Assembly: GCA_033439265.1 (NCBI GenBank)
Contig: JAVTVX010000001.1
Coordinates: 1,257,501 to 1,321,500, forward strand
Direction of reading: 5' to 3'
DNA from: Dillenia suffruticosa
Taxonomy: Eukaryota > Streptophyta > Magnoliopsida > Dilleniales > Dilleniaceae
Length of the DNA: 64,000 nt
Shown here: positions 6,193 through 55,118 of the stretch, piece by piece
How the letters are laid out: each line of letters begins with the position of its first letter
How positions within the stretch are numbered: the stretch's first letter is position 1
Position numbers and translations under genes: made by a program
The notes under the pieces: generated by a model
Databases searched by the model: none
Told to the model about the DNA's origin: nothing
Seen by the model: only the letters and a program-made list of their open reading frames with translations

Positions 6193-6272
6193 TTGGCTCG
6201 GTGGTTTACAGGTTGGATGCAGGAATGCGGAGGAGTGCGGAGTTTAGAGTTCGAACCACGGCGGAGGCAGAA
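6193..6272 (+). other. Second tRNA-like patch inside the CACTA element
   Basis: ggctcggtggtttacagg resembles an A-box region and gttcgaacca resembles a B-box about 45 bases later. Orientation is opposite to the patch at 5536-5612. A degenerate tRNA-derived fragment is the simplest reading. Confidence 0.3.
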
Positions 6273-39665: not shown

Positions 39666-39669
39666 CATA

Positions 39670-40228
39670 CAGAATCACAACATTTACAAGCCCCAAACCT
39701 TAATCTATCACGAAACATTTAATAAATATTTTTTTAATATTCTCTAATTATTGTGTTGTTAAAGATAAAAAATATCATATTACCTAAATTATATTGATAT
39801 ACAACTTTAACAATTATATTGATATTAAAAAAAACCTGTAATTCATGCCGATAAATCTAACTTACAATTATAAGGTATAACACAAAACTCAAAGGTTCTA
39901 GTTTCAACAAAATCATCCATGGAGAGAGAGTGAGAGAGAGATTTTCATTTGATAGCTGTAGCATTTCTACCCTGGTGTGCCAAATGAAACCCTCCATATT
40001 CTTCTCCTTGGCTGCCCTTGATCTTTAAAAGAATGCTTTTCGTTTTTTCCCTTTTCTATATTTTGCAACTTCTTCTTATTCTTTTTTTTTTCTTTTGATG
40101 GTATAAGCTCCCTTGTTTTTAAAGTTCTCTATTTTTGCAAATCACTTGATTCTCTTGTTATAAAAATTTAAATTCAAGTCATTGTATCTAATTTACATAA
40201 AAAGGAAAACCCCTCAATTGTTGAGTCC
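39670..40228. other. Left flank of the tRNA-Tyr array; no gene
   Basis: AT-rich, with a short GA run at 39921-39941. Nothing else recognisable. Confidence 0.5.
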
Positions 40229-40246
40229 ATTATTCAACTAAATGAC
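40229..40246 (+). repeat. 18-bp direct repeat at the left edge of the tRNA-Tyr array
   Basis: attattcaactaaatgac, identical to 54335-54352. The first tRNA-like unit starts within or immediately after it. It looks like a target-site duplication. Confidence 0.85.
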
Positions 40247-40332
40247 TACATAGCTTAGTTGTTGTTAGAGCAGTGGACTATAATGTGATTGTTGAAATTC
40301 TTAAGTCGCTTGTTTGAAATCGGCAAGTCGGA
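40244..40332 (+). pseudogene. Y1: tRNA-Tyr-like unit, decayed
   Basis: Anticodon ATA. The D loop is 3 nt longer than consensus, and the 5' acceptor strand (gactaca) cannot pair. It overlaps the edge of the 18-bp flanking repeat. Confidence 0.75.
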
Positions 40333-40507
40333 ATTACCCGTTCATTTTCTACTTTTTGCCCTTTTACTTTTATTAATTATACATGCTCTTATGCTCTTTT
40401 TAGTCCCACTCTTCCTCCTTTTCTTTAGCCTACGTGACATATAGCACATGACAACACCCATTCTCCCTCACTGTAGTATTATATTATTGCATTCAAATTG
40501 TTTGTGT

Positions 40508-40593
40508 CCGATTTTAGCTCAGTTGGTAGAGCGGAGGACTATAGTGTGATTACTGAAATCCTTAGGTTGTTGGTTCAAATCTGACTGCTCGGA
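40508..40593 (+). pseudogene. Y2: tRNA-Tyr-like unit, decayed
   Basis: 86 bp, anticodon ATA. Acceptor strands ccgattt and tgctcgg are mismatched in the inner half. Confidence 0.8.
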
Positions 40594-40722
40594 ATTACTT
40601 TTGCCCTTTCACCGTTTTTGTGCCCACGACTATAATAATTTGTCCCATAACATCCAACACAAGGTAACACCCATTCCGCCTAGTAATACTATTATATTAT
40701 TGCATTTAAACTATTTCTGTAC

Positions 40723-40799
40723 CTGAACTTAGCTCAATTGGTAGAGCGGAGGAGTTTAATGTGATTGGTTAAATCTTTAGATGGCCGATTCAAATCATC
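40723..40799 (+). pseudogene. Y3: tRNA-Tyr-like unit, 3' end lost, anticodon TTA
   Basis: The anticodon position reads TTA (ochre type), with position 32 changed to G. T arm and 3' acceptor strand are destroyed, so it cannot make a tRNA. Confidence 0.7.
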
Positions 40800-40924
40800 T
40801 GTGTTTTAATTAATTATACATGTGCATTTTAGCCCAACTCTTCCTCCTACTTTTCCTTAGCATGCACGACATATAGTGCATGGTAACACACATTCAAACT
40901 ATAGTGCACGGTAACACGCTTTGC

Positions 40925-41009
40925 CCGACCTTAGCTCAATTGGTAAAGCAGAGGACTGTAGTGTGATTGCTTAAATCCTTAGTTTGCTTGTTCGCTCCGG
41001 CTATTTGCA
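40925..41009 (+). pseudogene. Y4: tRNA-Tyr-like unit, 3' end decayed
   Basis: Anticodon GTA and good 5' half. The B-box has a small deletion (ttcgctccgg) and the 3' acceptor strand is lost. Confidence 0.75.
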
Positions 41010-41178
41010 ATTTTTATTTTCCTTTCCACTTTTTTCCCTTTCACTTTTAATAATTATATAGACGCATTTTAACCCCACTCTTCCCCCTCCTTTTCCTTAG
41101 CTTGCATGACATATAGCACAGAGTAACACCCGTTCCCCCTCGTAGTATTATATTATTGTATTCAAATTATTTCTACAT

Positions 41179-41264
41179 CCAACCTTATCTCAGTTGGTAA
41201 AGCATAGGACTATAATGTGATTGTTGAGATCCTTAGGTTATCGATTCGAATTTGGCATGTCAGA
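41179..41264 (+). pseudogene. Y5: tRNA-Tyr-like unit, decayed
   Basis: 86 bp, anticodon ATA. Acceptor strands ccaacct and atgtcag. Confidence 0.8.
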
Positions 41265-41435
41265 ATTACATATTTCTTTTCTACTTGTTGCCCTTTCACT
41301 TTTATTAACTGTACATGCACATTTTGGCCCCACTCTTCGTCCTTCTTTTCCATAGCTTGCATGACATATAGTGTACAAAATACAGATTCCCCCTCATTGT
41401 AGCATTATATTACTATATTTAAGCCATTTCCATTT

Positions 41436-41521
41436 CTAATCTTAGCTCAATTGGTAAAGCGCAGGAGTGTAATGTGATTGCTGAAATCCTTAGTTTGCTG
41501 GTTTGAATCCGACAGTTCCTT
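41436..41521 (+). pseudogene. Y6: tRNA-Tyr-like unit, 3' acceptor lost
   Basis: Anticodon GTA with position 32 changed to G. 5' strand ctaatct; no matching 3' strand. Confidence 0.7.
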
Positions 41522-41604
41522 AGCGTCCACAACATATAGTGAACAGTAACACCCATTCCCCCTTATTGTAGCATTATATTATTATATTAAAAATATTTTT
41601 GTGT

Positions 41605-41690
41605 TCGACCTTAACTCAGTTGATAGAGCAGAGGATTGTTGTGTGATTACTAAAATCCTTAGGTTGCTAGTTCAAATCCAATAAGTCAGA
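41605..41690 (+). pseudogene. Y7: tRNA-Tyr-like unit, anticodon GTT
   Basis: 86 bp. A36 is T, giving an Asn-type GTT anticodon. Acceptor strands tcgacct and aagtcag have mismatches. Confidence 0.8.
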
Positions 41691-41847
41691 ATTAGTTGTT
41701 TCTTTTCTACCTTTACCCTTACCTCTATTAATTATAAATGTGCATTTTGGTCTCACTCTTCGTCCTCTGCACGACATATAGTGCACATTAACACTCACTC
41801 CCCCCTCATTGTAGTATTATATTATTGTTTTTAAACTATTTTCATAT

Positions 41848-41933
41848 TCGACCATAGCTCAGTTGGTAGAGCGATGGACTATAGTGTGATTGTTGAATTT
41901 CTTAGATCGCTCGTTCGAATCTGGCATATCAAA
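41848..41933 (+). pseudogene. Y8: tRNA-Tyr-like unit, decayed
   Basis: 86 bp, anticodon ATA. Acceptor strands tcgacca and atatcaa. Confidence 0.8.
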
Positions 41934-42103
41934 ATTGCATGTCTTTACTACATTTTCTCCTTTTAGTTTTATTAATTATATATGCACATTTTGGCATCGC
42001 TCATCGTCCTCCTTTTCCTTAGCATGCGCAACATATAGCGCACATTAACACCCATTTCCCCTTATTGTAGTTTTATATTATTGTATTCAAACTATTTCTA
42101 TGA

Positions 42104-42189
42104 CAGACCTTAACTCAGTTGGTAGCGCAGAGGACTGTAGTGTGGTTGCTAAAATTTTCAGGTTGCCGGTTTGAATTCGACATGTCGAA
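42104..42189 (+). pseudogene. Y9: tRNA-Tyr-like unit, decayed
   Basis: 86 bp, anticodon GTA. D arm changed (gtagcgc); acceptor strands cagacct and atgtcga. Confidence 0.8.
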
Positions 42190-42341
42190 ATTATTTGTTT
42201 CTTTTCTACTTTATGCACTTTTACTTTTATTAATTACATATGCACATTTTGGCCCACTCTTTGTCCTCCTTTTTCTAAGCATACATGACACATTCCCTCT
42301 CATTGTAATATTATATTATTATATTCAAACTATTTTTGCAT

Positions 42342-42427
42342 CTGACCTTAACTCAGTTGGTAGAGCGGAGTACTGTAGTGTGATCGCTAAAATTCTTAGG
42401 TTGCTGGTTCGAATTCGGTAGGTCGGA
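42342..42427 (+). pseudogene. Y10: tRNA-Tyr-like unit, partly foldable
   Basis: 86 bp, anticodon GTA. The acceptor stem pairs with one wobble (T2-G71), but there is a D-stem mismatch at 10-25 and an anticodon-stem mismatch at 30-40. Confidence 0.75.
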
Positions 42428-42586
42428 ATCACTCATTTCTTTTCTACTTTTTACCCTTTCACTTTTGTTAATTATATATGAGCATTTTGACCCACTCTTC
42501 TTCCTCCTCTTCTTAGATGTGCGACATATAGTGTCTATTCTCTCTCATTGTAGTATTATATTATTGTAGTCAAACTATTTTTATGT

Positions 42587-42650
42587 CTAACCTTAGCTCA
42601 ATTGGTTGAGCAAAAGACTGTATATGATTGCCAAAATCCTTAGGCCGAAA
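42587..42650 (+). pseudogene. Y11: tRNA-Tyr-like unit, T arm deleted
   Basis: Anticodon GTA. The sequence jumps from the 3' anticodon stem to a remnant of the 3' acceptor. Confidence 0.75.
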
Positions 42651-42766
42651 TTACAAGTTTCTTTTCTGCCCCACTCTTCGTCCTCCGTTCCTTAAAGTGC
42701 ACGACATATAGCACTCATTCCCTCTCATTGTAATATTATATTATTGTATTCAAACTATTTTTGTGT

Positions 42767-42851
42767 CCGACCATAACTCAGTTGGTAGAGCGGAGGATTG
42801 TAGTGTGATTGCTAAAATCCTTAGGCTCTAGTTCGAATCCGGTAGTTCGGA
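42767..42851 (+). pseudogene. Y12: tRNA-Tyr-like unit, 1-nt deletion
   Basis: 85 bp, anticodon GTA, missing one base in the variable region. Acceptor strands ccgacca and agttcgg. Confidence 0.8.
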
Positions 42852-43012
42852 ATTACTCATTTCTTTTCTACTTTTTGCCCTTTTGCTTTTGTTAATTATA
42901 TATAAGCATTTTAGCCTTACTCATCGTCCTCCTTTTTTTAGCATGCGCGACATATAGCGCCTATTCCATCTCATTGTAGTATTATATTATTGTATTCAAA
43001 CTATTTTGATAT

Positions 43013-43098
43013 CCGACCTTAGCTCAGTTGGTAGAGTGGAGAACTGTAGTGTGATTGCTGATATCTTTAAGTCACTGGTTCAAATTCGACAAGTCGGA
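43013..43098 (+). pseudogene. Y13: tRNA-Tyr-like unit, decayed
   Basis: 86 bp, anticodon GTA. Acceptor has one C6-A67 mismatch; the T stem has mismatches at 49-65 and 50-64. Confidence 0.8.
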
Positions 43099-43258
43099 AT
43101 TACTCGTTTCTTTTCTACTTTTTGTCTTTAACTTTTCTTAATTACATATGAGCATTTTGGCCCCAATCTTCGTCCTCCTTTCCTTAGCATGCACGACATA
43201 TAACGCACATTCCCTCTCATTGTAGTATTATATTATTGTATTCAAAATATTTTTATAT

Positions 43259-43344
43259 CCGACCTTAACTCAATTGGTAGAAAGGAGGATTACAGTGTGA
43301 TTCCTAAAATCCTTAGGTCGCTGGTTCGAATTCGGAAGGTTGAA
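43259..43344 (+). pseudogene. Y14: tRNA-Tyr-like unit, anticodon ACA
   Basis: 86 bp. The anticodon triplet reads ACA. The D stem is broken (tagaaag) and the 3' acceptor is aggttga. Confidence 0.8.
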
Positions 43345-43504
43345 ATTAATTGTTTCTTCTCTACTTTTTGCCCTTTCACTCTTGTTAATTATATATGAGC
43401 ATTTTGTCCACTCTTCGTCATCATTTTTCTTAGCATGCGCGACATAGAGTGCCAATTTCCTCTTATTGTAGTTTTATATTATTGTATTGAAACTATTTTT
43501 ATGT

Positions 43505-43589
43505 CCGACCTTAGCTCAGTTGGTAGAGCAGAGGACTATAGTGTGATTGCTGAAATCTTTAGGTCGCTGTTTGAATCAAGCAGGTCGGA
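43505..43589 (+). pseudogene. Y15: tRNA-Tyr-like unit, T-arm deletion
   Basis: 85 bp, anticodon ATA. The acceptor stem is perfect (ccgacct/aggtcgg) but the T arm has lost a base and its stem. Confidence 0.8.
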
Positions 43590-43763
43590 ATTACTCGTTT
43601 CTTTTATACTTTTTGCCCTTTCACTTTTGTTAATTATTTATGAGCATTTTGGCCCCACCCTTCGTCCCCAATCTTCATCCTCCTTTCCTTAGTATGCGCG
43701 ACATATAGCGCCTATTCCCTCTCATTGTACTATTAAATTATTGCATTCAAAATATTTTTATGT

Positions 43764-43849
43764 CCGACCATAACTCAATTGGTAGAGCGGAGAACTGTAG
43801 TGTGATTGTTGAAATCCTTAGGTCATTGGTTCAAATCCGGTAAGTTGGA
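43764..43849 (+). pseudogene. Y16: tRNA-Tyr-like unit, decayed
   Basis: 86 bp, anticodon GTA. Acceptor strands ccgacca and aagttgg do not pair cleanly. Confidence 0.8.
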
Positions 43850-44010
43850 ATTGCTCGTTTCTTTTCTACCTTTTGTCCTTTTACTTTTGTTAATTATATA
43901 TAAGCATTTTGGCCTCACTCTTCGTCATTTTTTTCTTAACATGCGCAAAATATAGCTGTCATTCCCTCTCATTGAAGTATTATATTATTGTATTCAAACT
44001 ATTTTGATGT

Positions 44011-44096
44011 CTGACCTTAACTCAATTGGTAGAACGGGGAACTGCAGTGTGATTGTTGAAATCCTTTGATCGTTGGTTCAAATTAGGCGGGTCGGA
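44011..44096 (+). pseudogene. Y17: tRNA-Tyr-like unit, anticodon GCA
   Basis: 86 bp. T35 to C gives a Cys-type GCA anticodon. Acceptor strands ctgacct and gggtcgg. Confidence 0.8.
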
Positions 44097-44255
44097 ATTG
44101 CTCGTTTCTTTTCTACTTTTTGCCCTTTCACTTTTGTTAATTATATATAAGCATTTTGGCCTCACTCTTCTCCTCCTTTTCTTGGCATGTGGACATATAG
44201 CACACAATCCCTCTCATTGTAGTATTATATTATTGTATTCAAACTATTTTTATCT

Positions 44256-44341
44256 CTGACCTTAGCTTAGTTGGTAAAGCAGAGAACTATAGTATGATTG
44301 CTGAAATCCTTAGGTCGCTAGATTGAATTTGGTAGGTCCGA
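44256..44341 (+). pseudogene. Y18: tRNA-Tyr-like unit, decayed
   Basis: 86 bp, anticodon ATA. Acceptor strands ctgacct and aggtccg; B-box changed (agattgaat). Confidence 0.8.
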
Positions 44342-44499
44342 ATTACTCATTTCTTTTCTACTTTTTGTCCTTTCACTTTTGTTAACTATATATAAGCATT
44401 TTGGCCCACTCTTCCTCCTTCTCTTCTTAGCATGCGTGATATATAGCGCACATTCCCTCTCACTGTACTATTATATTATTGTATTTAAACTATTTTTAT

Positions 44500-44572
44500 A
44501 ATTGGTAGAGCGGATGACTGTAGTGTGATTGCTGAAATTTTTAGGTCGCTAGTTCGAATTAGGTAAATCAGA
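44500..44572 (+). pseudogene. Y19: tRNA-Tyr-like unit, 5' truncated
   Basis: The spacer joins directly to attggtagagc, so the acceptor strand and part of the D arm are deleted. Anticodon GTA. Confidence 0.75.
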
Positions 44573-44730
44573 ATTACTCATTTTTTTCTACCTTTTTTTT
44601 TACTTTTGTTAATTATATATGAGTATTTTGGCCCCACTCTCCATCATCCTTTTTCTTAGCATGTGCGATATATAACGCTCATTCCCTCTCATTGTAGTAT
44701 TATATTATTGTATTCAAATTATTTTTATAT

Positions 44731-44817
44731 CCGACATTGGCTTAGTTGATAGAGTAGAGAGCTGTAGTGTGATTTGTTGAAATCCTTAAGTCGTTGGTTC
44801 GAATTCAGTAGATTAGA
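44731..44817 (+). pseudogene. Y20: tRNA-Tyr-like unit, 14-nt intron
   Basis: 87 bp, anticodon GTA, intron with an extra T. Acceptor strands ccgacat and agattag. Confidence 0.8.
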
Positions 44818-44978
44818 ATTGCTCGTTTCTTTCCTACTTTTTGCCATTTCACTTTTGTTAATTATATATGAGCATTTTGGTCCCACTCTTCATCCTCATT
44901 TTCTTAGCATGGGCAACATATAGCGCTCATTCCCTCTCATTATAGTATTGTATTATTGTATTCAAACTATTTTTGTGT

Positions 44979-45043
44979 CGAATCTTAGCTTAGTTGGTAG
45001 AATAAAGAACTGTAGTATGATTGCTGAAATCCCAACAAGTTAG
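44979..45043 (+). pseudogene. Y21: tRNA-Tyr-like unit, internal deletion
   Basis: Anticodon GTA. Most of the variable loop and T arm is deleted. Confidence 0.75.
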
Positions 45044-45206
45044 AATTATTCATTTCTTTTCTACTTTTTGCCCTTTTACTTTTGTTAATTATATATGAGT
45101 ATTTTGGCCCCACTCTTTATCCTCCTTGTTCTTAGCATGCGCGACATATAATGCTCATTCCCTCTTATTGTAGTATTATATTATTGTATTCAAACTATTT
45201 TGATGT

Positions 45207-45268
45207 CCGACCTTAACTCAGTTGGTAGAGCGGAGAATTGTAATATGATTGCTGAAATCTTTAAGTTG
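45207..45268 (+). pseudogene. Y22: tRNA-Tyr-like unit, 3' truncated
   Basis: Anticodon GTA, 5' strand ccgacct. The sequence runs from ttaagttg straight into the downstream T-rich spacer. Confidence 0.75.
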
Positions 45269-45420
45269 TTTCTTTTCTACTTTTTATCCTTTCACTTTTA
45301 TTAATTATATATGAGCATTTTAGCCCCAATTTTCGTCCTCCTTTCCTTATCATGCACGACATATAGCGCATATTCCCTCTCATTGTAGTATTATATTATT
45401 GTATTCAAACTATTTGGTGT

Positions 45421-45471
45421 CCAACCTTCACTCAGTTGGTAGAGTAGAAGATTGTAGTGTGATTGATCAGA
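45421..45471 (+). pseudogene. Y23: tRNA-Tyr-like unit, large internal deletion
   Basis: Anticodon GTA. Deleted from within the intron to the last acceptor bases (gatcaga). Confidence 0.75.
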
Positions 45472-45632
45472 ATTACTCGTTTCTTTTCTACTTTTTGCTC
45501 TTTCACTTTTATTAATTATATATGAGCATTTTGACCCCACTCTTCGTCCTCCTTTTCTTAGCATGCGCGACCTATAGCGCTCATTCCCTCTCATTGTACT
45601 ATTATATTATTGTATTCAAATTATTTTTATGT

Positions 45633-45719
45633 TCGACCTTAGCTCAGTAGGTAAAGTGGAAAACTATAGTGTGATTTACTGAAATCCTTAGGTCATTGGT
45701 TCGAATCCGGTAGATCGGA
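45633..45719 (+). pseudogene. Y24: tRNA-Tyr-like unit, 14-nt intron
   Basis: 87 bp, anticodon ATA. Acceptor strands tcgacct and agatcgg. Confidence 0.8.
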
Positions 45720-45880
45720 ATTACTCGTTTCTTTCCTACTTTTTGTCATTTCACTTTTGTTAATTATATATGAGCATTTTGGCCCCACTCTTCGTCCTCC
45801 TTTTTTTAGCAGGCGCAATATATAGTGTCAATTTCCTCTCATTGTAGTTTTATATTATTATATTCAAACTATTTTTATAT

Positions 45881-45966
45881 CCGACCTTAGTTCAGTTGGT
45901 AGAGCAGAGGACTATAATGTGATTGTTGAAATCCTTAGGTTGTTGGTTCGAATTCGACAAGTCGGA
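45881..45966 (+). pseudogene. Y25: tRNA-Tyr-like unit, decayed
   Basis: 86 bp, anticodon ATA. Acceptor has a single C6-A67 mismatch; A-box changed (tagttcag). Confidence 0.8.
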
Positions 45967-46127
45967 ATTACTCGTTTCTTTTTTACTTTTTGTCCTTTCA
46001 CTTTTGTTAATTATTTATTAGCATTTTGGCCCCACCCTTCATCCTCCTTTCCTTAACATGCGCGACATATAGTGCTCATTCCCTCTCATTGTAGTATTAT
46101 ATTATTGTATTCAAACTATTTTTGTGT

Positions 46128-46213
46128 CGAACCTTAGCTTAGTTGGTAGAACAGAGAACTATATTGTGATTGCTAAAATTCTGTGATTGCTTGTTCCAAT
46201 CTGACAGGTCGGA
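46128..46213 (+). pseudogene. Y26: tRNA-Tyr-like unit, decayed
   Basis: 86 bp, anticodon ATA. Acceptor strands cgaacct and aggtcgg; B-box changed (gttccaatc). Confidence 0.8.
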
Positions 46214-46373
46214 ATTACTCGTTTCTTTTCTACTTTTGGCCCTTTCACTTTTGTTAATTATATATGAGCATTTTGGCCCCAATCTTTGTCCTCCTTTCCT
46301 TAGAATGCCGACATATAACGCTCATTCCCACTCATTGTACTATTATATTATTGTATTCAAAATATTTTTATGT

Positions 46374-46459
46374 CCGACCTTAACTCAATTGGTAGAGTGG
46401 AGCACTATAGTGTAATTGCTAAAATTCTTAGGTCACTGGTTTGAATCCGGTAGGTCGAA
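46374..46459 (+). pseudogene. Y27: tRNA-Tyr-like unit, decayed
   Basis: 86 bp, anticodon ATA. Acceptor strands ccgacct and aggtcga (outer pair lost). Confidence 0.8.
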
Positions 46460-46620
46460 ATTACTCGTTTCTTTTCTATCTTTTGTCCTTTCACTTTTGT
46501 TAATTATATATGAGCATTTTGGCACCACTCTTCGTCATCATTTTCTTAGCATGTGCGACATATAGCTCCCATTCCCTCTCATTGTAGTATTATATTATTG
46601 TATTCAAGCTATTTTGATAT

Positions 46621-46706
46621 CCAACCTTAGCTCAGTTGGTAGAGCGGAGGACTGTAGTATGATTGCTGAAATCCTTAGGTCGCTGGTTCAAATCCGGCAG
46701 GTCGGA
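46621..46706 (+). tRNA. Y28: tRNA-Tyr (GTA), nearly intact
   Basis: 86 bp with all arms present, anticodon GTA, 13-nt intron (tatgattgctgaa) and an acceptable B-box GGTTCAAATCC. The only stem defect I see is A3 opposite C70. Upstream TATA-like and ttcaagc signals are present. Whether it is transcribed cannot be told from sequence. Confidence 0.55.
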
Positions 46707-46856
46707 ATTGCTTGTTTCTTTTATACTTTTTGCCCTTTCACTTTTGTTAATTATATATGAGCATTTTGGCCCCACTCTTCTCCTCCATGTGCGACATATA
46801 GCTCCAATTCCCTCTCATTGTAGTATTATATTATTGTATTCAAACTATTTTTTTAC

Positions 46857-46942
46857 CTGACCATAACTCAGTTGGTAGAGCAAAGGACTATAGTATGATT
46901 GCTAAAATTCTTAGGTCGCTAGTTCAAATCTGGCAGGTTAGA
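46857..46942 (+). pseudogene. Y29: tRNA-Tyr-like unit, decayed
   Basis: 86 bp, anticodon ATA. Acceptor strands ctgacca and aggttag. Confidence 0.8.
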
Positions 46943-47103
46943 ATTACTCTTTTCTTTTCTACTTTTTGCCCTTTCACTGTTGTTAATTATATATAAGCAT
47001 TTTGGCCCTACTCTTCCTCCTCATTTTCTTAGCATGCGCGACATATAGCGCATATTTCCTCTCATTGTGGTATTATATTATTGTATTCAAACTATTTTGA
47101 TGT

Positions 47104-47189
47104 CCAACCTTAGCTCAGTTGATAGAGCGGAAGACTATAGTGTGATTGCTGAAATTCTTAGGTAGCTGATTCGAATTAGGCAGATCAGA
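47104..47189 (+). pseudogene. Y30: tRNA-Tyr-like unit, decayed
   Basis: 86 bp, anticodon ATA. D loop gttgatag; acceptor strands ccaacct and agatcag. Confidence 0.8.
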
Positions 47190-47350
47190 ATTACTCGTTT
47201 CTTTTCTACTTTTTGCCCTTTCACTTTTATTAATTATATATGAGCATTTTAACCCCACTCTTCATCCTTCTTTTCTTAGCATGTGCGACCTATAGCGCTC
47301 ATTCCCTCTCATTGCAGCAATATATTTTTGTATTCAAATTATTTTTATGT

Positions 47351-47437
47351 CCGACCTCAACTCAGTTGGTAAAGCAGAAAACTGTAGTGTGATTTATTGA
47401 AATCTTTAGGTTGTTGGTTCGAATTTGGTAAATCGGA
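47351..47437 (+). pseudogene. Y31: tRNA-Tyr-like unit, 14-nt intron
   Basis: 87 bp, anticodon GTA. Acceptor strands ccgacct and aaatcgg; anticodon stem weakened (agaaaac). Confidence 0.8.
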
Positions 47438-47593
47438 ATTAGTCATTTTTTCCTACTTTTTGCCATTTCACTTTTGTAATATATGAGCATTTTGGCCCCA
47501 CTCTTCGTCCTTCTTTTCTTAGCATGCGCAACATATAATGCCCATTCCCTCTCATTGTAGTATTATATTATTGTATTCAAACTATTTTTGTGT

Positions 47594-47687
47594 CCGACCT
47601 TAGCTCAGTTGGTAGAGCAGAAAATTATAGTGTGATCGCTGAAATCCTTAGGTCCTTAGGTCACTGGTTCGAAACCGACAAGTCAGA
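47594..47687 (+). pseudogene. Y32: tRNA-Tyr-like unit with 8-bp tandem duplication
   Basis: 94 bp, anticodon ATA. The word ccttaggt is duplicated between the anticodon stem and variable loop, destroying the fold. Confidence 0.85.
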
Positions 47688-47767
47688 ATTATTCATTTGT
47701 TTTCTACTTATAATGCCCATTTCCTCTCATTGTAGAATTATATATTGTATTTAAACTATTTTTATGT

Positions 47768-47853
47768 CCAAGCTTAACTCAGTTGGTAGAACGGAGGACT
47801 ATAGTGTAATTGTTGAAATCCTTAGGTAACTGGTTCGAATTCGACAGACCGAA
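47768..47853 (+). pseudogene. Y33: tRNA-Tyr-like unit, decayed
   Basis: 86 bp, anticodon ATA. Acceptor strands ccaagct and agaccga. Confidence 0.8.
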
Positions 47854-48015
47854 ATTACTCGTTTTTTTGTACTTTTTGTACTTTCACTTTTGCTAATTAT
47901 ATATGCGAATTTTGGCCCTCAATCTTTGTCCTCTTTTTTTCTAAGCATGCGTGACATATAGTGTGCATTCCCTCTCATTGTAGTATTACATTATTATGTT
48001 CAAACTATTTTTTTA

Positions 48016-48101
48016 TCGACCTTAGCTCAGTTAGTAGAGCGGAGAACTGTAGCGTGATTGTTGAAATCCTTAGGTCGCTGGTTCGAATTTGACAGGTCGG
48101 A
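48016..48101 (+). pseudogene. Y34: tRNA-Tyr-like unit, decayed
   Basis: 86 bp, anticodon GTA. The acceptor pairs with one wobble, but A30-C40 and C50-A64 mismatches and a changed D loop (gttagtag) are present. Confidence 0.8.
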
Positions 48102-48263
48102 ATCACTCATTTCTTTTCTATTTTTTGTCATTTCACTTTTGTTAATTATATATGAACATTTTGACCACACTCTTCATCCTCCTCTTTCTTAGCATGTGCG
48201 ACTTATAGTGTTCATTCCCTCTCATTGTATTATTTTATTATTGTATTCAAACTAATTTTGTGT

Positions 48264-48349
48264 CCGACCTTAACTCAGTTAGAAGAGCGGAGGACTGTAA
48301 TGTGCTTGCTGAAATCCTTAGGTCGCTGGTTCAAATCTGGCAGGTCGGA
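48264..48349 (+). pseudogene. Y35: tRNA-Tyr-like unit, D arm broken
   Basis: 86 bp, anticodon GTA and a perfect acceptor stem. The D-loop GG pair is lost (gttagaag) and position 10 is A. Confidence 0.8.
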
Positions 48350-48511
48350 ATAGCTCATTTCTTTTCTACTTTTTGTCATTTCACTTTTATTAATTATATA
48401 TGAACATTTTGACCAGGCTCTTCATCCTCATTTTTCTTAGCATGCGCGACATATAGCGTCCATTCCCTCTCATTGTATTATTTTATTATTGTATTCAAAC
48501 TAATTTTGTGT

Positions 48512-48597
48512 CTGACCTTAACTCAGTTGGTGGAGCGGAGGACTATAGTGTGATTGCTAAAATCCTTAGATAATTGATTCGAATCCGGCAGATTGGA
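48512..48597 (+). pseudogene. Y36: tRNA-Tyr-like unit, ATA class
   Basis: 86 bp, anticodon ATA. Carries the tggtggagcgg D-arm variant typical of higher-order type C; 3' acceptor agattgg. Confidence 0.8.
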
Positions 48598-48730
48598 ATT
48601 ACTCATTAATTATATATGCACATTTTGGCCCCCACTCTTTGTCCTCCTCTTTTTTCTAAGCATGCATGACATTTATTGCCACTTCCCTCTCATTGTAGTT
48701 TACATTATTATGTTCAAACTATTTTTGTGT

Positions 48731-48815
48731 CCAACCTTAGCTTAGTTGGTAGAGCGGAGGATTGTTGTGTAATTGCTGAAATCCTTAGATCGTTGGTTCG
48801 AATCCACCAGGTAGA
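48731..48815 (+). pseudogene. Y37: tRNA-Tyr-like unit, anticodon GTT
   Basis: 85 bp. Asn-type GTT anticodon, as in Y7. 5' strand ccaacct; the 3' acceptor has lost a base. Confidence 0.8.
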
Positions 48816-48976
48816 ATCACTTGTTTCTTTTCTACTTTTTGCCCTTACACTTTTGTTAATTATATATAAACATTTTGGCCACGTTCTTCATCTTTTTTTT
48901 CTTAGCATGCGCGACATATAGCGTCCGTTCCCTCTATTTGTATTATTTTATTATTGTATTCAAACTAATTTTGTGT

Positions 48977-49063
48977 CCGATCTTAACTCAGTTGGTAGAG
49001 CGGAATACTGTAGTGTGATTTACTAAAATCCTTAGGTCGTTGGTTTGAATCCGCTAGATCGGA
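48977..49063 (+). pseudogene. Y38: tRNA-Tyr-like unit, 14-nt intron, covarying acceptor
   Basis: 87 bp, anticodon GTA. Acceptor strands ccgatct and agatcgg pair fully through T5-A68. The anticodon stem and T stem have mismatches. Confidence 0.8.
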
Positions 49064-49128
49064 ATTACTCGTTTCTTTCTTACTTTTTGTCATTTCACTT
49101 TTGCTAATTACATATGAGCATTTTGGCC

Positions 49129-49168
49129 TAAAATTCTTAGGTAACTGGTTCGAATCCAACAGATCAAA
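49129..49168 (+). pseudogene. Y39: 3' half of a tRNA-Tyr-like unit
   Basis: A deletion joins spacer (attttggcc) directly to the 3' half starting at the intron end. No anticodon remains. Confidence 0.75.
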
Positions 49169-49331
49169 ATTACTCGTTTCTTTTCTACTTTTTTGTACTT
49201 TCACTTTTAATAATTATATATGCAGATTTTGGCCCCACTCTTTGTCCTCTTTTTTCTAAGCATGCATGACATATAGTGCCCATTCCCTCTCATTGTAGTA
49301 TTAAAGTATTATGTTCAAACTATTTTTGTGT

Positions 49332-49417
49332 CCGACCTTAGCTCAGTTGGTAGAGCGGAGGACTGTAGTGTGATCGCTGAAATCCTTAGGTCGCTGGTTC
49401 GAATTCGGCAGGTTGGA
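49332..49417 (+). tRNA. Y40: tRNA-Tyr (GTA), foldable
   Basis: 86 bp, anticodon GTA, consensus A-box and D arm, 13-nt intron tgtgatcgctgaa. Two differences only affect pairing: T61 and T70 both become wobble partners of G. The B-box reads ggttcgaattc, weaker at its last base. Upstream ttcaaac retained. Confidence 0.65.
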
Positions 49418-49565
49418 ATTAGTCGTTTCTTTATACTTTTTGTCATTTCAATTTTGTTAATTATATGAACATTTTGACTGGGCTTTTTATCCTCCTTTTT
49501 CTTAACATGCGCGACATTCCCTCTCATTGTATTATTTTATTATTGTATTCAAACTAATTTTGTGT

Positions 49566-49651
49566 CCGACCTTAGCTCAGTTGGTGGAGTGGAGGACTAT
49601 AGTGTGATCACTGAAATCCTTAAATAACTTATGCAAATCCGACAAATCGGA
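49566..49651 (+). pseudogene. Y41: tRNA-Tyr-like unit, ATA class
   Basis: 86 bp, anticodon ATA, type C D arm (tggtggagtgg). B-box lost (atgcaaatcc). Confidence 0.8.
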
Positions 49652-49812
49652 ATTACTCCTTTTTTCTACTTTTTGCACTTTTAGTTTTATTAATTATATA
49701 TGCGCATTTTAGCCCTCACTCTTTGTCCTCTTTTTTCTAAGCATACGTGACATATAGTGCTCTTTCCTTCTCATTGTAGTATTACATTATTATGTTCAAA
49801 TTATTTTTGTAT

Positions 49813-49898
49813 TTGACCTTAGCTTAGTTGGTAGAGCGGAGGGCTGTAGCGTGATCGCTGAAATTCTTAAGTCGCTGGTTTGAATCCGGCATGTCGAA
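49813..49898 (+). pseudogene. Y42: tRNA-Tyr-like unit, decayed
   Basis: 86 bp, anticodon GTA. Acceptor strands ttgacct and atgtcga. Confidence 0.8.
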
Positions 49899-50060
49899 AT
49901 CACTCGTTTCTTTTCTATTTTTTACCCTTTCACTTTTGTTAATTATATATGATCATTTTGACCACACTCTTCATCCTCCTTTTTCTTAGCATGCGCAACT
50001 TATAGCGTTCATTCCCTCTCATTGTAGCATTAAATCATTATGTTTAATTTATTTTTGTGT

Positions 50061-50146
50061 TCGATATTAGCTCAATTGGCAGAGTGGAGGACTGTAGTGT
50101 GATCGCTGAAATCCTTAGGTCGCTGGTTCGAATCTGGCAGGTCGAA
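50061..50146 (+). pseudogene. Y43: tRNA-Tyr-like unit, acceptor decayed
   Basis: 86 bp, anticodon GTA and good B-box. Acceptor strands tcgatat and aggtcga. Confidence 0.8.
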
Positions 50147-50305
50147 ATTGCTTTTCTTTTCTATCTTTTGCCATTTCACTTTTGTTAATTATATATGAAC
50201 ATTTTGACTGGGCTCTTTGTCCTCCTTTTTCTTAATATGCGCGACGTATAGTGCACATTCCCTCTCATTGTGTTATTTTATTATTTTATTCAAACTAATT
50301 TGTGT

Positions 50306-50391
50306 CCGACCTTAGCTCAGTTGGTGGAGTGGAGGACTAAAGTGTGATTGCTGAAATCCTTAGATAACTGATTCGAATCCGACAGACTGGA
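50306..50391 (+). pseudogene. Y44: tRNA-Tyr-like unit, anticodon AAA
   Basis: 86 bp, type C. The anticodon triplet reads AAA (Phe-type box) where its relatives read ATA. 3' acceptor agactgg. Confidence 0.8.
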
Positions 50392-50551
50392 ATTACTCAT
50401 TTTTTCTACTTTTTACACTTTCACTTTTATTAATTATATATGCGCATTTTGGCCTCTACTCTTTGTCCTCTTTTCCTAAGCATGCATGACATATAGTGCC
50501 CATTCCCTCACATTGTAGTATTACATTATTATGTTCAAACTATTTTTGTGT

Positions 50552-50637
50552 CCAACCTTAGCTTAGTTGGTAGAGCGGAGGATTGTAGTGTGATTGTTGA
50601 AATCCTTAGGTCGTTGGTTCGAATCCAGCAAGTCAAA
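50552..50637 (+). pseudogene. Y45: tRNA-Tyr-like unit, decayed
   Basis: 86 bp, anticodon GTA with good A- and B-boxes. Acceptor strands ccaacct and aagtcaa. Confidence 0.8.
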
Positions 50638-50799
50638 ATCACTCGTTTCTTTTCTACTTTTTGCCCTGACACTTTTGTTAATTATATATAAACGTTTTGA
50701 CCATGCTCTTCATCCTCTTTTTTCTTAGCATGCGCGACATACAGCGTCCATTCATTCTCTTTGTATTATTTTATTATTGTATTCAAACTAATTTTGTGT

Positions 50800-50886
50800 C
50801 CGATCTTAGCTCAGTTGGTAGAGTAGAAGATTGTAATGTGATTTACTAAAATTCTTAGGTCGTTGGTTCGAATCCGGTAGATCGGA
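50800..50886 (+). pseudogene. Y46: tRNA-Tyr-like unit, nearly foldable, 14-nt intron
   Basis: 87 bp, anticodon GTA. The acceptor pairs fully via T5-A68, the T stem pairs with wobbles, and the anticodon stem has one A29-C41 mismatch. Borderline between a weak gene and a pseudogene. Confidence 0.65.
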
Positions 50887-51047
50887 ATTACTCATTTCTT
50901 TCCTACTTTTTGCCATTTCACTTTTGTTAATTACATATGAGTATTTTGGCCCCACTCTTCGTCCTCCTTTTCTTAGCATGTGCAACATAGAGTACCCATT
51001 CCCTTTCATTGTAGCATTATATTATTGTATTCAAACTATTTTTGTGT

Positions 51048-51133
51048 CCAACCTTAACTCAGTCGGTAGAGTGGAGGACTATAGTGTGATCGTTGAAATC
51101 CTTAGGTTGCTGGTTCGAATCTGACATGTCAGA
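51048..51133 (+). pseudogene. Y47: tRNA-Tyr-like unit, decayed
   Basis: 86 bp, anticodon ATA. Acceptor strands ccaacct and atgtcag. Confidence 0.8.
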
Positions 51134-51295
51134 ATTATTCGTTTCTTTTCTACTTTTTACCCTTTTACTTTTGTTAATTATATATGAACATTTTGGCCCT
51201 ACTCTTCATCTTCCTTTTTCTTAGCATGCGTGACATATAATGTCCATTCCCTCTCATTGTAGTATTGTATTATTGTATTCAAATTATTTTTGTGT

Positions 51296-51381
51296 CCAAC
51301 CTTAACTTAGTTGGTCGGGCGGAGGACTATAGTGCGATTGCTGATATTCTTAGGTAACTGGTTCGAATCCGATAGATCGAA
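51296..51381 (+). pseudogene. Y48: tRNA-Tyr-like unit, decayed
   Basis: 86 bp, anticodon ATA. D arm changed (ggtcgggc); acceptor strands ccaacct and agatcga. Confidence 0.8.
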
Positions 51382-51543
51382 ATTACTCGTTTCTTTTTTA
51401 CTTTTTGCACTTTCACTTTTATTAATTATATATACGCATTTTGACCTCTCTCTTTGTCCTCTTTTTTCTAAGCATGTGTGACATATAGTTTCTATTCCCT
51501 CTCATTGTAGTATTAAATTATTATGTTCAAACTATTTTTGTGT

Positions 51544-51629
51544 CCAACCTTAGCTCAGTTGGTAGAGCGGAAGACTGTAGTGTGATCGTTGAAATCCTTA
51601 GGTCGCTGGTTCGTATCCGACAGGTCGGA
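51544..51629 (+). pseudogene. Y49: tRNA-Tyr-like unit, B-box mutated
   Basis: 86 bp, anticodon GTA. A3-C70 acceptor mismatch and a B-box change (gttcgtatcc). Confidence 0.7.
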
Positions 51630-51791
51630 ATTACTTGTTTCTTTTTTATTTTTTTCCATGTCACTTTTGTTAATTATATATGAACATTTTGACCGGGCTC
51701 TTTATCCTCCTTTTTCTTAACATACGCGAGCTATAGTGTCCATTCCCTCTCATTGTATTATTTTATTATTGTATTCAAACTAATTTTGTGT

Positions 51792-51867
51792 CCGACCTTA
51801 ACTCAGTTGGTGGAGTGGAGAGATCACTGAAATCCTTAGATAACTTATTCGAATCCAACATACCGAA
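51792..51867 (+). pseudogene. Y50: tRNA-Tyr-like unit, anticodon arm deleted
   Basis: Type C unit. The anticodon and start of the intron are deleted between gtggag and agatcactgaaatcc. Confidence 0.8.
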
Positions 51868-52028
51868 TTACTCGTTTTTTTATACTTTTTGCACTTTCAC
51901 TTTTATTAATTATATATGCGCATTTTGGCCCCCATTCTTTGTCCTCTTTTTTCCAAGCATGCTAGACATATAGTGCTCATTCCCTCTCATTATAGTATTA
52001 CATTATTATGTTCAAACTATTTTTGTAT

Positions 52029-52113
52029 CCGACCTTAGCTCAGTTGGCAGAGCGGAGGACTGTAGTGTATTGTTGAAATCCTTAGGTTGTTGGTTCAAAT
52101 CCGGTAGGTCGGA
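52029..52113 (+). tRNA. Y51: tRNA-Tyr (GTA), foldable, 12-nt intron
   Basis: 85 bp, anticodon GTA, perfect acceptor stem, intron shortened by one base (tgtattgttgaa). The T stem pairs using wobbles and the B-box GGTTCAAATCC is acceptable. D loop has one C. Confidence 0.6.
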
Positions 52114-52277
52114 ATCACTCGTTTCTTTTCTATTTTTTTTTCCTTTTCACTTTTGTTAATTATATATGAACATTTTGACCACACTCTTCATCCTCCTTTT
52201 TCTTAGCATGCGCGATTTATAGCGCTCATTCCCTCTCATTGTACTATTAAATAATTATGTTCAAATTATTTTTGTGT

Positions 52278-52363
52278 CCGACCTTAGCTCAGTTGGTAGA
52301 GCGGAGGACTGTAGTGTAATCGCTGAAATCCTAAGGTCGCTGCTACGAATCCGGCAGGTCGGA
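52278..52363 (+). pseudogene. Y52: tRNA-Tyr-like unit, B-box destroyed
   Basis: 86 bp, anticodon GTA, perfect acceptor stem and A-box. The B-box reads gctacgaatcc and the anticodon stem has a T42-to-A change, so Pol III recruitment and folding are doubtful. Confidence 0.7.
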
Positions 52364-52452
52364 ATTACTTCCTTTTTCTTAACATGCGCGACATATAGCG
52401 CCCGTTCCCTCTCATTGTATTATTTTATTATTGTATTCAAACTAATTTGTGT

Positions 52453-52538
52453 CCGACCTTAGCTCAATTGGTGGAGTGGAGGACTATAGTGTGATTGTTG
52501 AAATCTTTAGATAACTTATTCGAATTCGGCAGATTGGA
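52453..52538 (+). pseudogene. Y53: tRNA-Tyr-like unit, ATA class
   Basis: 86 bp, type C D arm, anticodon ATA, 3' acceptor agattgg. Confidence 0.8.
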
Positions 52539-52700
52539 ATTACTTGTTTTTTTCTACTTTTTGTACTTTCACTTTTATTAATTATATGTGCGCATTTTGA
52601 CCCCCACTCTTTGTCCTCTTTTTTCTAAGCATGCATGATATATAGTGCTCATTCCCTCTCATTATAGTATTACATTATTATGTTCAAACCATTTTTGTAT

Positions 52701-52786
52701 CCGACCTTAGCTCAGTTTGTAGAGTGGAGGACTCTAGTGTGATCGCTGAAATCCTTAGATCGCTGGTTCGAATCCGACATGTCGAA
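52701..52786 (+). pseudogene. Y54: tRNA-Tyr-like unit, anticodon CTA (amber type)
   Basis: 86 bp. G34 to C gives CTA, complementary to the UAG stop codon. The D-loop GG is TG, the acceptor has mismatches at 1-72 and 6-67, and 50-64 is mismatched. Probably not functional. Confidence 0.8.
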
Positions 52787-52947
52787 ATTACTCGTTTCTT
52801 TTTTAATTTTTATCATTTCACTTTTATTAATTATATATGAACATTTTGACCACACTCTTCATCCTCCTTTTTCTTAGCATGCGTGACTTATAGCGCTCAT
52901 TCCCTCTCATTGTACTATTAAATTATATGTTTAAATTATTTTTGTGT

Positions 52948-53033
52948 CCGACCTTAGCTCAGTTGGTAGAGCGGAGGACTGTAGTGTGATCGCTGAAATC
53001 CTTAGGTCGCTGGTTCGAATCCGGCAGGTCGGA
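52948..53033 (+). tRNA. Y55: tRNA-Tyr (GTA), intact
   Basis: 86 bp. Every stem pairs: CCGACCT/AGGTCGG with discriminator A, GCTC/GAGC, anticodon stem with one G27-T43 wobble, and GCTGG/CCGGC. Anticodon GTA, 13-nt intron tgtgatcgctgaa after position 37, and consensus A- and B-boxes. It decodes UAU/UAC tyrosine codons if expressed. A T-run lies about 10 bases downstream. Its upstream CAA motif is mutated (tttaaatt instead of ttcaaact), which may reduce initiation. Confidence 0.92.
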
Positions 53034-53194
53034 ATTACTCGTTTCTTTTTTATTTTTTGTCATTTCACTTTTGTTAATTATATATGAACATTTTGACCGG
53101 GCTCTTTATCCTCCGTTTTCGTAACATGCGCGACACATAGCGCCCGTTCCCTCTCATTGTATTATTTTATTATTGTATTCAAATTAATTTGTGT

Positions 53195-53280
53195 CCGACC
53201 TTAGCTCAGTTGGTGGAGTGGAGGACTATAGTGTGATTGCTGAAATCTTTAGATAACTGATTCGAATTCGGCATATTGGA
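53195..53280 (+). pseudogene. Y56: tRNA-Tyr-like unit, ATA class
   Basis: 86 bp, type C D arm, anticodon ATA, 3' acceptor atattgg. Confidence 0.8.
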
Positions 53281-53442
53281 ATTACTCGTTTTTTTCTACT
53301 TTTTGTACTTTCACTTTTATTAATTATATGTGCGCATTTTGGCCCCCACTCTTTGTCCTCTTTTTTCTAAGCATGCATAATATATAGTGCTCATTCCCTC
53401 TCATTATAGTATTACATTATTATGTTCAAACCATTTTTGTAT

Positions 53443-53527
53443 CCGACCTTAGCTCAGTTTGTAGAGCGAAGGACTGTAGTGTGATCGCTGAAATCCTTAG
53501 GTCGCTGGTTCGAATCGACAGGTTGAA
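53443..53527 (+). pseudogene. Y57: tRNA-Tyr-like unit, 1-nt T-stem deletion
   Basis: 85 bp, anticodon GTA. D-loop GG reads TG as in Y54; one base lost after the B-box; 3' acceptor aggttga. Confidence 0.8.
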
Positions 53528-53687
53528 ATTACTCGTTTTTTTTTATTTTTTATCATTTCACTTTTGTTAATTATATATGAACATTTTGACCGGGCTCTTT
53601 ATCCTCCTTTTTCTTAACATGCGCGACATATAGCGCCCGTTCCCTCTCATTGTATTATTTTATTATTGTATTCAAACTAATTTGTGT

Positions 53688-53773
53688 CCGACCTTAGCTC
53701 AGTTGGTGGAGTGGAGGACTATAGTGTGATTGCTGAAATCTTTAGATAACTGATTCGAATCCGGCAGATTGGA
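53688..53773 (+). pseudogene. Y58: tRNA-Tyr-like unit, ATA class
   Basis: 86 bp, type C D arm, anticodon ATA, 3' acceptor agattgg. Confidence 0.8.
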
Positions 53774-53935
53774 ATTACTCGTTTTTTTCTACTTTTTGTA
53801 CTTTCACTTTTATTAATTATATGTGCGCATTTTGGCCCCCACTCTTTGTCCTATTTTTTCTAAGCATGCATGATATATAGTGCTCATTCCCTCTCATTAT
53901 AGTATTACATTATTATGTTCAAACCATTTTTGTAT

Positions 53936-54021
53936 CCGACCTTAGCTCAGTTGGTAGAGCGGAGGACTGTAGTGTGATCGTTGAAATCCTTAGGTCGTTG
54001 GTTCGAATCCGACAAGTCGGA
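53936..54021 (+). tRNA. Y59: tRNA-Tyr (GTA), nearly intact
   Basis: 86 bp, anticodon GTA, consensus A- and B-boxes, 13-nt intron. The T stem has T50-A64 in place of C50-G64 and still pairs. The only mismatch is C6-A67 in the acceptor. Upstream ttcaaac retained. Confidence 0.55.
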
Positions 54022-54183
54022 ATCACTTGTTTCTTTTCTAATTTTTGCCCTTTCATTTTTGTTAATTATATATGAACATTTTGACCACACTCTTCATTCT
54101 CTTTTTTCTTAGCATACGTGACTTATAGCGCTCATTCCCTCTCATTGTATAATTTTATTATTGTATTCAAACTAATTTTGTGT

Positions 54184-54269
54184 TTGACCTTAGCTCAGTT
54201 GGTAGAGCGGAAGACTATATTGTGATTGCTGAAATCTTTAGGTCGCTGGTTCGAATCCGACAACTTGGA
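54184..54269 (+). pseudogene. Y60: last tRNA-Tyr-like unit of the array
   Basis: 86 bp, anticodon ATA. Acceptor strands ttgacct and aacttgg. Its spacer breaks off about 45 bases on, after acatgcgca, and continues as an A-rich run. Confidence 0.8.
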
Positions 54270-54334
54270 ATTGTTCATTTTTTTTTTCTACTTTTTATTA
54301 ATTATACATGCGCAAAAAAGAAAAGAAAAAAAAA

Positions 54335-54352
54335 ATTATTCAACTAAATGAC
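54335..54352 (+). repeat. 18-bp direct repeat at the right edge of the tRNA-Tyr array
   Basis: Identical to 40229-40246. Immediately preceded by an A-rich run (about 54314-54334). Confidence 0.85.
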
Positions 54353-54895
54353 CATTTTGCCATTGAAATATCTCACATCACAAAGGGAATTTGGGGGACA
54401 AGTATGGGACTAAAGGACAAAATTTTAATAAGGTTTATTTGTCAATAATTAGTAGAGAGAGAAATGAATTCCAATTTTTCGAATCAATTTTTGGTCAATG
54501 AAAAATATGTTTTTTAAGTTCATTGAGAGAGTCTTTTTCTTTTTACAGCCAACGGAAAGGGGACAAGGGTGGAACACCTCACAGATTCCAAGGGATTGAA
54601 AGTCTTTAGTAACACCGCATTCAACCGCAGGTGAAGCCGGGGCAATTGGCGTCCGAAATTTATTATAAAAAATGTTAGTACAAGCTATATTTCAATAAAT
54701 ACTTTTAAAAATTTTAAAAATATGCAAGAATTCATTAAAATGTTATTTAGTTTTCTAAAATTTATTATATTTGTCTCCTTTAACTATTCTCCATGATATC
54801 ATACTCTTCCTTTTAATATAAATTTCAAATTTTGTTTTTATACATAATGATATAAAATATCTAGATTACATAGAAATGAAAACGAATACATAAAT
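54353..54895. other. Spacer between array and SINE; no gene
   Basis: Non-coding. The first ~100 bases probably represent the original right flank of the array's insertion site. 54881-54895 is the SINE's left target duplication. Confidence 0.5.
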
Positions 54896-55103: not shown

Positions 55104-55118
55104 AACGAATACATAAAT

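Follow-up and report, generated by a model that had tools for sequence, protein, structure and literature searches.

A 64,000-nucleotide stretch of the Dillenia suffruticosa genome (hereafter the window; positions 1257501-1321500 of contig C1 in a 37-contig assembly, GCA_033439265.1) contains a tandem array of intron-bearing tRNA-Tyr units that lies exactly between two perfect copies of an 18-bp direct repeat and terminates, on its 3' side, in an A-rich tract. The anatomy of this array, the relationships among its units and the substitutions that they have accumulated are accounted for, with somewhat better than even confidence, by insertion of sequence from a related array, subsequent expansion of one clade of units, and decay of the type expected of methylated DNA, leaving a relic today. 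In its present state the array appears most likely, judging from its sequence, to be a largely silent relic that harbors one intact and possibly usable tRNA-Tyr gene.

Organization of the array

A search of window positions 39001-55500 with a single-unit query (nhmmer) recovered 60 tRNA-Tyr units, all on the forward strand and extending from 40250 to 54313, and a rebuilt profile again recovered 60 units, at 40249-54314. Distances between successive tRNA starts (n = 59) amount to 240-255 bp in 38 cases, 200-239 bp in 12, less than 200 bp in five and 256-259 bp in four, which bears out a preliminary description of this DNA as containing about 60 head-to-tail tRNA-Tyr units in one orientation, recurring at intervals of about 247 bp. 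Tandem Repeats Finder (TRF) reported periods of 246-248 bp and approximately 483-499 bp, plus some other periods, across 41516-54284.

Each 247-bp unit corresponds to an 86-bp tRNA-Tyr(GTA) gene with a 13-nt intron and a spacer of approximately 160 bp. The consensus tRNA is complete and intron-bearing (86 nt, anticodon GTA), with the A and B boxes of its tRNA-like head intact, and the gene had been correctly assigned at the outset. The gathering score of Rfam model RF00005 was reached at 23 positions of the window, and all 23 coincide (within 6 bp) with the tRNA starts of Tyr units, such that no alternation with tRNA-Ser genes was found; ARAGORN, in its bacterial setting, named five tRNAs. The array is thus a long head-to-tail succession of one monomer, as in a satellite, and because its units differ from each other by 19% on average, over-assembly of the locus appears unlikely on the evidence of the sequence. 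The positions of its principal features, and of nearby protein-coding matches, are collected in Table 1.

Table 1. Positions of array features and neighboring protein matches in the window
Feature	Positions	Strand	Basis
Left 18-bp direct repeat, target-site-duplication-like	40229-40246	+	longest word common to both flanks
Nine left-edge units, most diverged from array consensus	40249-42248	+	profile matches; difference (p) to consensus
Expanded part: 50-unit clade (98/96) and fragment 49128-49228, outside the tree	42243-54314	+	profile, tree
Near-intact tRNA-Tyr unit, 2 mature changes, 21/21 pairs kept	49332-49417	+	Rfam and pair scoring
Most recent duplications; closest pairs 2.3-4.5% apart, at 2-5 units' distance	52168-54080	+	nearest-neighbor distances
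Sole array unit with consensus mature tRNA-Tyr(GTA); 1 change, in intron	52948-53033	+	Rfam, 60.2 bits
A-rich tract (19 A of 21) between truncated last spacer and right repeat	54314-54334	+	sequence
Right 18-bp direct repeat	54335-54352	+	perfect copy of left repeat
Two ferroportin pieces	13.1-14.3 kb		Pfam
Sugar transporter, 1.7 kb left of array	37.9-38.6 kb		Pfam

Boundaries of the array

The word shared by the left and right flanks is ATTATTCAACTAAATGAC, and the sequence between its two copies corresponds exactly to the limits, 40247 and 54334, that had previously been assigned to the array. Among 2943 random pairs of segments of the same sizes, taken from the window outside the array, the longest common word was 14 bp, and the exact 18-mer occurs in the 596-Mb assembly twice, at the two ends of the array (a reversed control word: zero occurrences). 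When up to three mismatches are allowed, the window still holds just these two copies, against an expectation of 0.37 in shuffled windows.

At the 3' boundary, the last spacer ends in CATGCGC and is followed directly by the 21-base A-rich tract and then by the right repeat; if the first A of that repeat is included, the tract comprises 20 A in 22 bases, and tracts with at least 20 A in 22 are found at two other places on the forward strand of the window outside the array. At the 5' boundary, the first profile match begins at tRNA nucleotide 6, two nucleotides past the left repeat, which places the edge of the array at approximately tRNA nucleotide 4. A direct repeat combined with an A-rich 3' end and with a 5' edge close to the tRNA start is the typical trace of retroposition driven by a long interspersed element (LINE). 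The duplication and the A-rich end that characterize short interspersed elements (SINEs) are present here around the block as a whole, not around each unit. No word of at least 11 bp, other than unit-internal words, is shared at the ends of two further sets of tRNA-Tyr units on the same contig, the blocks at 12.45-12.50 Mb and a 380-bp array, both of which are described below.

Relationship to a second locus and internal phylogeny

A search with the spacer alone produced 57 matches (14 of 14 candidates scored), of which 49 belong to the window array and eight to the blocks of tRNA-Tyr units at C1:12.451-12.499 Mb; the spacer is therefore common to two loci, and sequence must have moved between sites. 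The possibility that the unit represents a dispersed SINE family was rejected, its spacer being known solely from these two places. The blocks at 12.45-12.50 Mb contain 30 tRNA matches, on the same strand as the window array, and three of the four blocks have, on their left, sequence in the same orientation that is approximately 72-73% identical to the spacer of a 933-bp tRNA-Tyr array on the same contig, from which it follows that the blocks and the 933-bp array probably share an ancestral locus.

A maximum-likelihood tree was built from 85 units, 57 from the window array and 28 from the 12.45-12.50 Mb blocks; three window units, namely two of the nine left-edge units and the fragment at 49128, lacked the length needed for inclusion. 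The seven left-edge units in the tree fall outside the 50-unit clade that comprises the remainder of the window array, and near units of the blocks. Left-edge units also differ more from the array consensus (p of 0.154-0.259, versus at most 0.153 for all other units), and an AACAC motif is present in 6/7 of them, in 7/28 block units and in 0/50 of the other window units. Across the array, p averages 0.193 over all pairs of the 60 units and 0.191 between immediate neighbors, with values of 0.167-0.191 for lags of 1 to 12 units. Divergence is thus nearly flat with distance, and the monomers are not homogenized in the manner of a typical satellite; recent duplication is seen at the right end only, where TRF also reports a row of period 493 with 87% matches (52373-54284).

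Pattern of decay

Substitutions were reconstructed as parsimony events on the 57-unit tree, a procedure that was used in place of rare-variant counting because most CG and CHG sites display transitions in more than three units, which makes such counting uninformative. In the tRNA part, C>T/G>A events amount to 7.5 per site in CG, 7.3 in CHG and 4.9 in CHH contexts, and in the spacer, which contains no CHG site, to 6.2 in CG and 4.0 in CHH contexts; transitions at A/T sites amount to 0.8 per site in the tRNA and 0.9 in the spacer. Substitutions per column are 0.136 for the tRNA versus 0.109 for the spacer, and 228 of 247 circular shifts of the unit give a difference no greater than that observed.

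Because C>T/G>A changes dominate and the tRNA part is not spared, the footprint is as would be expected of long-standing cytosine methylation in the absence of selection on the tRNA. An earlier suggestion that the array is a satellite born from a tRNA gene fits these results, in that the consensus tRNA is intact and tRNA and spacer decay at similar, context-specific rates. The suggestion that it is a silenced cluster agrees with the predominance of C>T/G>A decay, and silencing itself would be a reading of that footprint. An apparent excess of intact units (P 0.003, assuming independent sites) was considered as a sign of selection on the window array and set aside, since the spacer blocks show overdispersion too (variances of 11.8-18.7 against 6.3-7.5 expected) and the excess thus does not distinguish the tRNA.

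Intact and near-intact units

Stem pairs and the B box were scored in the 53 units that retain at least 80 of the 86 tRNA positions, using the 21 pairs outside the intron helix. All 21 pairs are kept in three of these units and an exact B box in nine, and a single unit (52948-53033), whose predicted fold is a cloverleaf plus the intron helix, possesses both. With gaps and truncations counted, mature-tRNA differences from the consensus number zero in 1/60 units and at least two in 59/60, in accord with the earlier impression that most copies are decayed. An intact core flanked by pseudogenes, of the kind seen in the Arabidopsis cluster discussed below, is therefore not present in the window array. 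Within the anticodon loop, the same 53 units carry CTATA in 21 cases and CTGTA in 20; CTATA in place of CTGTA corresponds to a G>A change in a CHG context that affects the first base of the anticodon.

Additional tRNA-Tyr loci

Two further arrays on the same contig and strand demonstrate that the birth of tRNA-Tyr arrays has recurred on C1, since their spacers are unrelated. The first, with 933-bp units (C1:12273655-12357173), contains 60 tRNA-Tyr matches within 12.2736-12.3292 Mb and continues to 12.357 Mb, with approximately 80 core units as estimated from spacing and with decayed units on both sides. The 53 core units that were examined differ by 1.1% on average, and 42 of them (two with gapped positions) are without a tRNA substitution, so that an intact core between decayed flanks is seen in this array, including diverged units at its left edge. 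The second, with 380-bp units (C1:13385139-13404456), contains 49 tRNA matches at 13.3851-13.4045 Mb that are 18% apart and mostly decayed. Across the tRNA, units of the three arrays have 89 bp in common at 99-100% identity. Beyond that segment, the 933-bp and 380-bp arrays match over no more than 33-39 bp (77-82% identity), and the 933-bp array and the window unit over no more than 23 bp. The spacer of the 380-bp array is private, except for partial matches at C1:13.4244 Mb and on C35 (six of six candidates scored).

In the 380-bp array, no more than one tRNA change is found in four of the 37 full units, whose spacers are 5-26% apart (with one close pair, at 4.8%). The variance of tRNA changes there is 25.9 against 8.1 expected, that of spacer blocks is 4.9-11.5 against 5.9-7.7, and CpG changes in the spacer are as frequent in the four near-intact units (6/24) as in the decayed ones (36/149). 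Because intact tRNAs sit in diverged and equally CpG-decayed spacers, these sequence patterns point to selection on a few units, or to gene conversion limited to the tRNA; the same variance test does not separate tRNA from spacer in the window array.

An anticodon-intron pattern matched the whole assembly 113 + 46 times (control: 0). With the intron of the 933-bp array excluded, 71 matches were found: 23 on C1, 41 on C16, and seven scattered over C10, C12, C17, C20 and C34 that have other introns. The C16 matches are distributed as 29 at 10.17-12.55 Mb, two at 13.65 Mb and ten at 21.37 Mb. Among the 29 (C16:10173299-12546850), one tRNA-Tyr variant recurs every 0.44-0.52 Mb, which suggests either a large segment repeated approximately five times or an effect of assembly. 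The ten (C16:21369163-21380000) lie within 11 kb on the minus strand and have a different intron.

Origin of the array

In the favored sequence of events, DNA extending from approximately tRNA nucleotide 4 to the A-rich tract would have been inserted between the two 18-bp copies, in the manner expected of target-primed reverse transcription with LINE-type machinery; the anatomy is visible at the junctions, and the mechanism is what it suggests. The inserted sequence was probably copied from a read-through RNA of the 12.45-12.50 Mb array, one that spanned several units and remained unspliced, because the spacer is otherwise found only there. Units on the 3' side would then have expanded by unequal exchange to form the 50-unit clade recovered in the tree, leaving older units behind at the left edge, and methylation in CG, CHG and CHH contexts may subsequently have led, through deamination, to the observed decay, with the tRNA part unprotected. 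The boldest element of this scheme, namely that reverse transcription of an unspliced read-through RNA covering several genes of a tRNA-Tyr array founded a new tRNA satellite at a distant site, is advanced tentatively, as a possibility that falls somewhat short of an even chance.

Several observations weigh against this scheme. The units retain their introns, which rules out a processed tRNA as the source, and 14 kb is long for a single retroposed RNA, such that the scheme requires later expansion. Searches for an empty site gave none: for the right flank, eight of eight candidates were scored and yielded seven partial matches with no other full-length copy, and for the left flank none was found among the 40 scored of 447 candidates, a repeat-dominated set. 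The left repeat lacks a canonical L1-type nick site (TT/AAAA) at its start, and 3 of 100 shuffled windows hold at least two inexact matches to the 18-mer (up to three mismatches, place and exactness ignored). The deep fork that unites the left-edge units with the blocks is weakly supported (34/76), and the mean spacer distance to the blocks is 0.252 for left-edge units versus 0.229 for the other window units. Finally, inferred back-changes of 0.3-2.2 per C/G site make the event counts rough.

A serious rival holds that the founder arrived as DNA, a piece of an array or an extrachromosomal circle pasted into a staggered double-strand break whose filling-in produced the 18-bp repeat, with expansion and decay to follow. 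Tandem arrays readily give circles, the direct repeat is also expected of such a repair event, and neither the retained introns nor the several source-like units at the left edge would require an RNA; yet this route predicts neither an A-rich tract placed precisely at the 3' junction nor a 5' edge within a few nucleotides of the tRNA start, and on balance we regard it as less likely than not. It is distinctly improbable that no insertion occurred and that unequal exchange instead multiplied an old dispersed tRNA-Tyr gene where it stood, with the 18-bp repeat arising by chance or by duplication of the flank. The three mutually unrelated spacer types do indicate that different tRNA-Tyr loci can amplify, and unequal exchange is thought to underlie other plant tRNA clusters, but the restriction of the 18-mer, across the assembly, to precisely the two ends of the array (as compared to a maximum of 14 bp in the control pairs) and the sharing of the spacer with another locus argue against local amplification.

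A further alternative concerns the present role of the array rather than its founding: that it is a living reservoir whose units would be maintained by selection and become active in some tissue, a behavior reported for the Ser-Tyr-Tyr cluster of Arabidopsis. The unchanged mature tRNA at 52948-53033 lies beside a spacer with 17 changes in 160 positions, and the 380-bp array displays near-intact tRNAs in diverged spacers together with an excess variance of tRNA changes, both of which such retention would explain. Against it, the tRNA of the window array is not less diverged than the spacer, the overdispersion of its spacer blocks means that the excess is not specific to the tRNA, and all units except one depart from the consensus mature tRNA. 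We therefore consider a living reservoir unlikely, and a role as a reservoir of tRNA-Tyr genes, as had been proposed for this locus, is poorly supported with one unchanged mature tRNA in 60; the idea would fit the 933-bp array better, given its 42 of 53 core units without a tRNA substitution.

Comparison with known systems

The nearest known system is the Ser-Tyr-Tyr (SYY) cluster of Arabidopsis thaliana, which, in the passages of PMC12308677 that deal with it, is described as methylated, as active in cells of the root cap and silent in the majority of tissues, and as having a core of major-type genes between variable, pseudogene-richer flanks. The same passages state that methylation itself is probably not the silencer, and the means by which an array is silenced therefore cannot be read from a methylation footprint alone. 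As far as those passages allow, the likeness consists of tandem, intron-bearing tRNA-Tyr genes with pseudogenes in a single plant genome, and it extends to the 933-bp array described here, in which a gene core likewise lies between pseudogene-rich flanks (PMC12308677). The window array differs in that it contains no tRNA-Ser, has a 247-bp unit with a single gene and retains one intact copy in 60, and further differences from the SYY cluster as portrayed there are the 18-bp direct repeats that bound it and the presence on one chromosome of arrays whose spacers are unrelated.

The window array is a variant of clustered plant tRNA-Tyr genes. Other clusters of plant tRNA genes, including those of tRNA-Pro, tRNA-Ile and Tyr-Ser in the relevant part of PMC11700998, and, across 50 plants in that of PMC12652284, clusters comprising between 2 and 110 nonidentical tRNA genes, resemble it in that one isotype has been duplicated in tandem; because large clusters had already been reported, size alone is not new. 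In the corresponding passages of both sources, a flanking target-site-like repeat or a comparison of spacers is unmentioned. In searches of the open-licence PMC literature, no earlier report was found of a tRNA array bounded by target-site-like repeats, or of several same-isotype arrays with unrelated spacers on one chromosome.

Among mobile elements, tRNA-derived SINEs resemble the array in their tRNA head with RNA polymerase III (Pol III) boxes and in the short direct repeats and A-rich 3' end that surround the block, and differ from it in that the window spacer is not dispersed, the units are tandem, and each contains a full tRNA with an intron. The Cassandra elements of plants also carry Pol III-type sequence. 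They are described, in part of PMC7215508, as retrotransposons without gag, pol or env domains that form long tandem arrays in plants, and the likeness is that of a retroelement in such arrays; on that description, the window unit differs in consisting solely of a tRNA gene and its 160-bp spacer.

These loci bear on the question of why clustered tRNA genes are retained and silenced in plants, and in some cases used. A single chromosome carries arrays of one isotype at differing stages of decay, with three mutually unrelated spacer types, and such arrays allow tests of array birth, of the rate of erosion driven by silencing, and of gene retention inside dead arrays, as in the intact tRNAs and diverged spacers of the 380-bp array. 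If an RNA step did take place, SINE-like retroposition would be linked to the origin of a tRNA satellite, tRNA arrays could seed daughter arrays via RNA, and the repeated births on C1, with unrelated spacers and different ages, would constitute the record of a cycle of birth, methylation and decay. Most units of such arrays would escape surveys limited to high-confidence tRNA genes; according to the portion of PMC11700998 that describes its methods, that survey kept high-confidence genes only and discarded pseudogenes.

Surroundings of the array and additional observations

Pfam matches were obtained for three of 20 open stretches tested in the window, and these are the two ferroportin pieces and the sugar transporter listed in Table 1. 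Immediately to the right of the array, positions 54890-55095 belong to a repeat that is dispersed over many contigs, with 39 or more additional copies at 83-88% identity. Elsewhere in the window, a 200-bp unit is present in two head-to-tail copies with 100% matches (28056-28458; TRF), which represents either a very recent duplication or an effect of assembly, and a GTCGCTAAATTTAGCGACGAA-like word occurs in tandem and inverted runs at 4298-6571 (TRF), in what we take to be perhaps an element resembling a miniature inverted-repeat transposable element. Outside the window, dense clusters of papain-like protease matches were noted at C31:18084194-18500132 and C12:35683063-35916688, in which some scores are identical and the spacing is near-regular.

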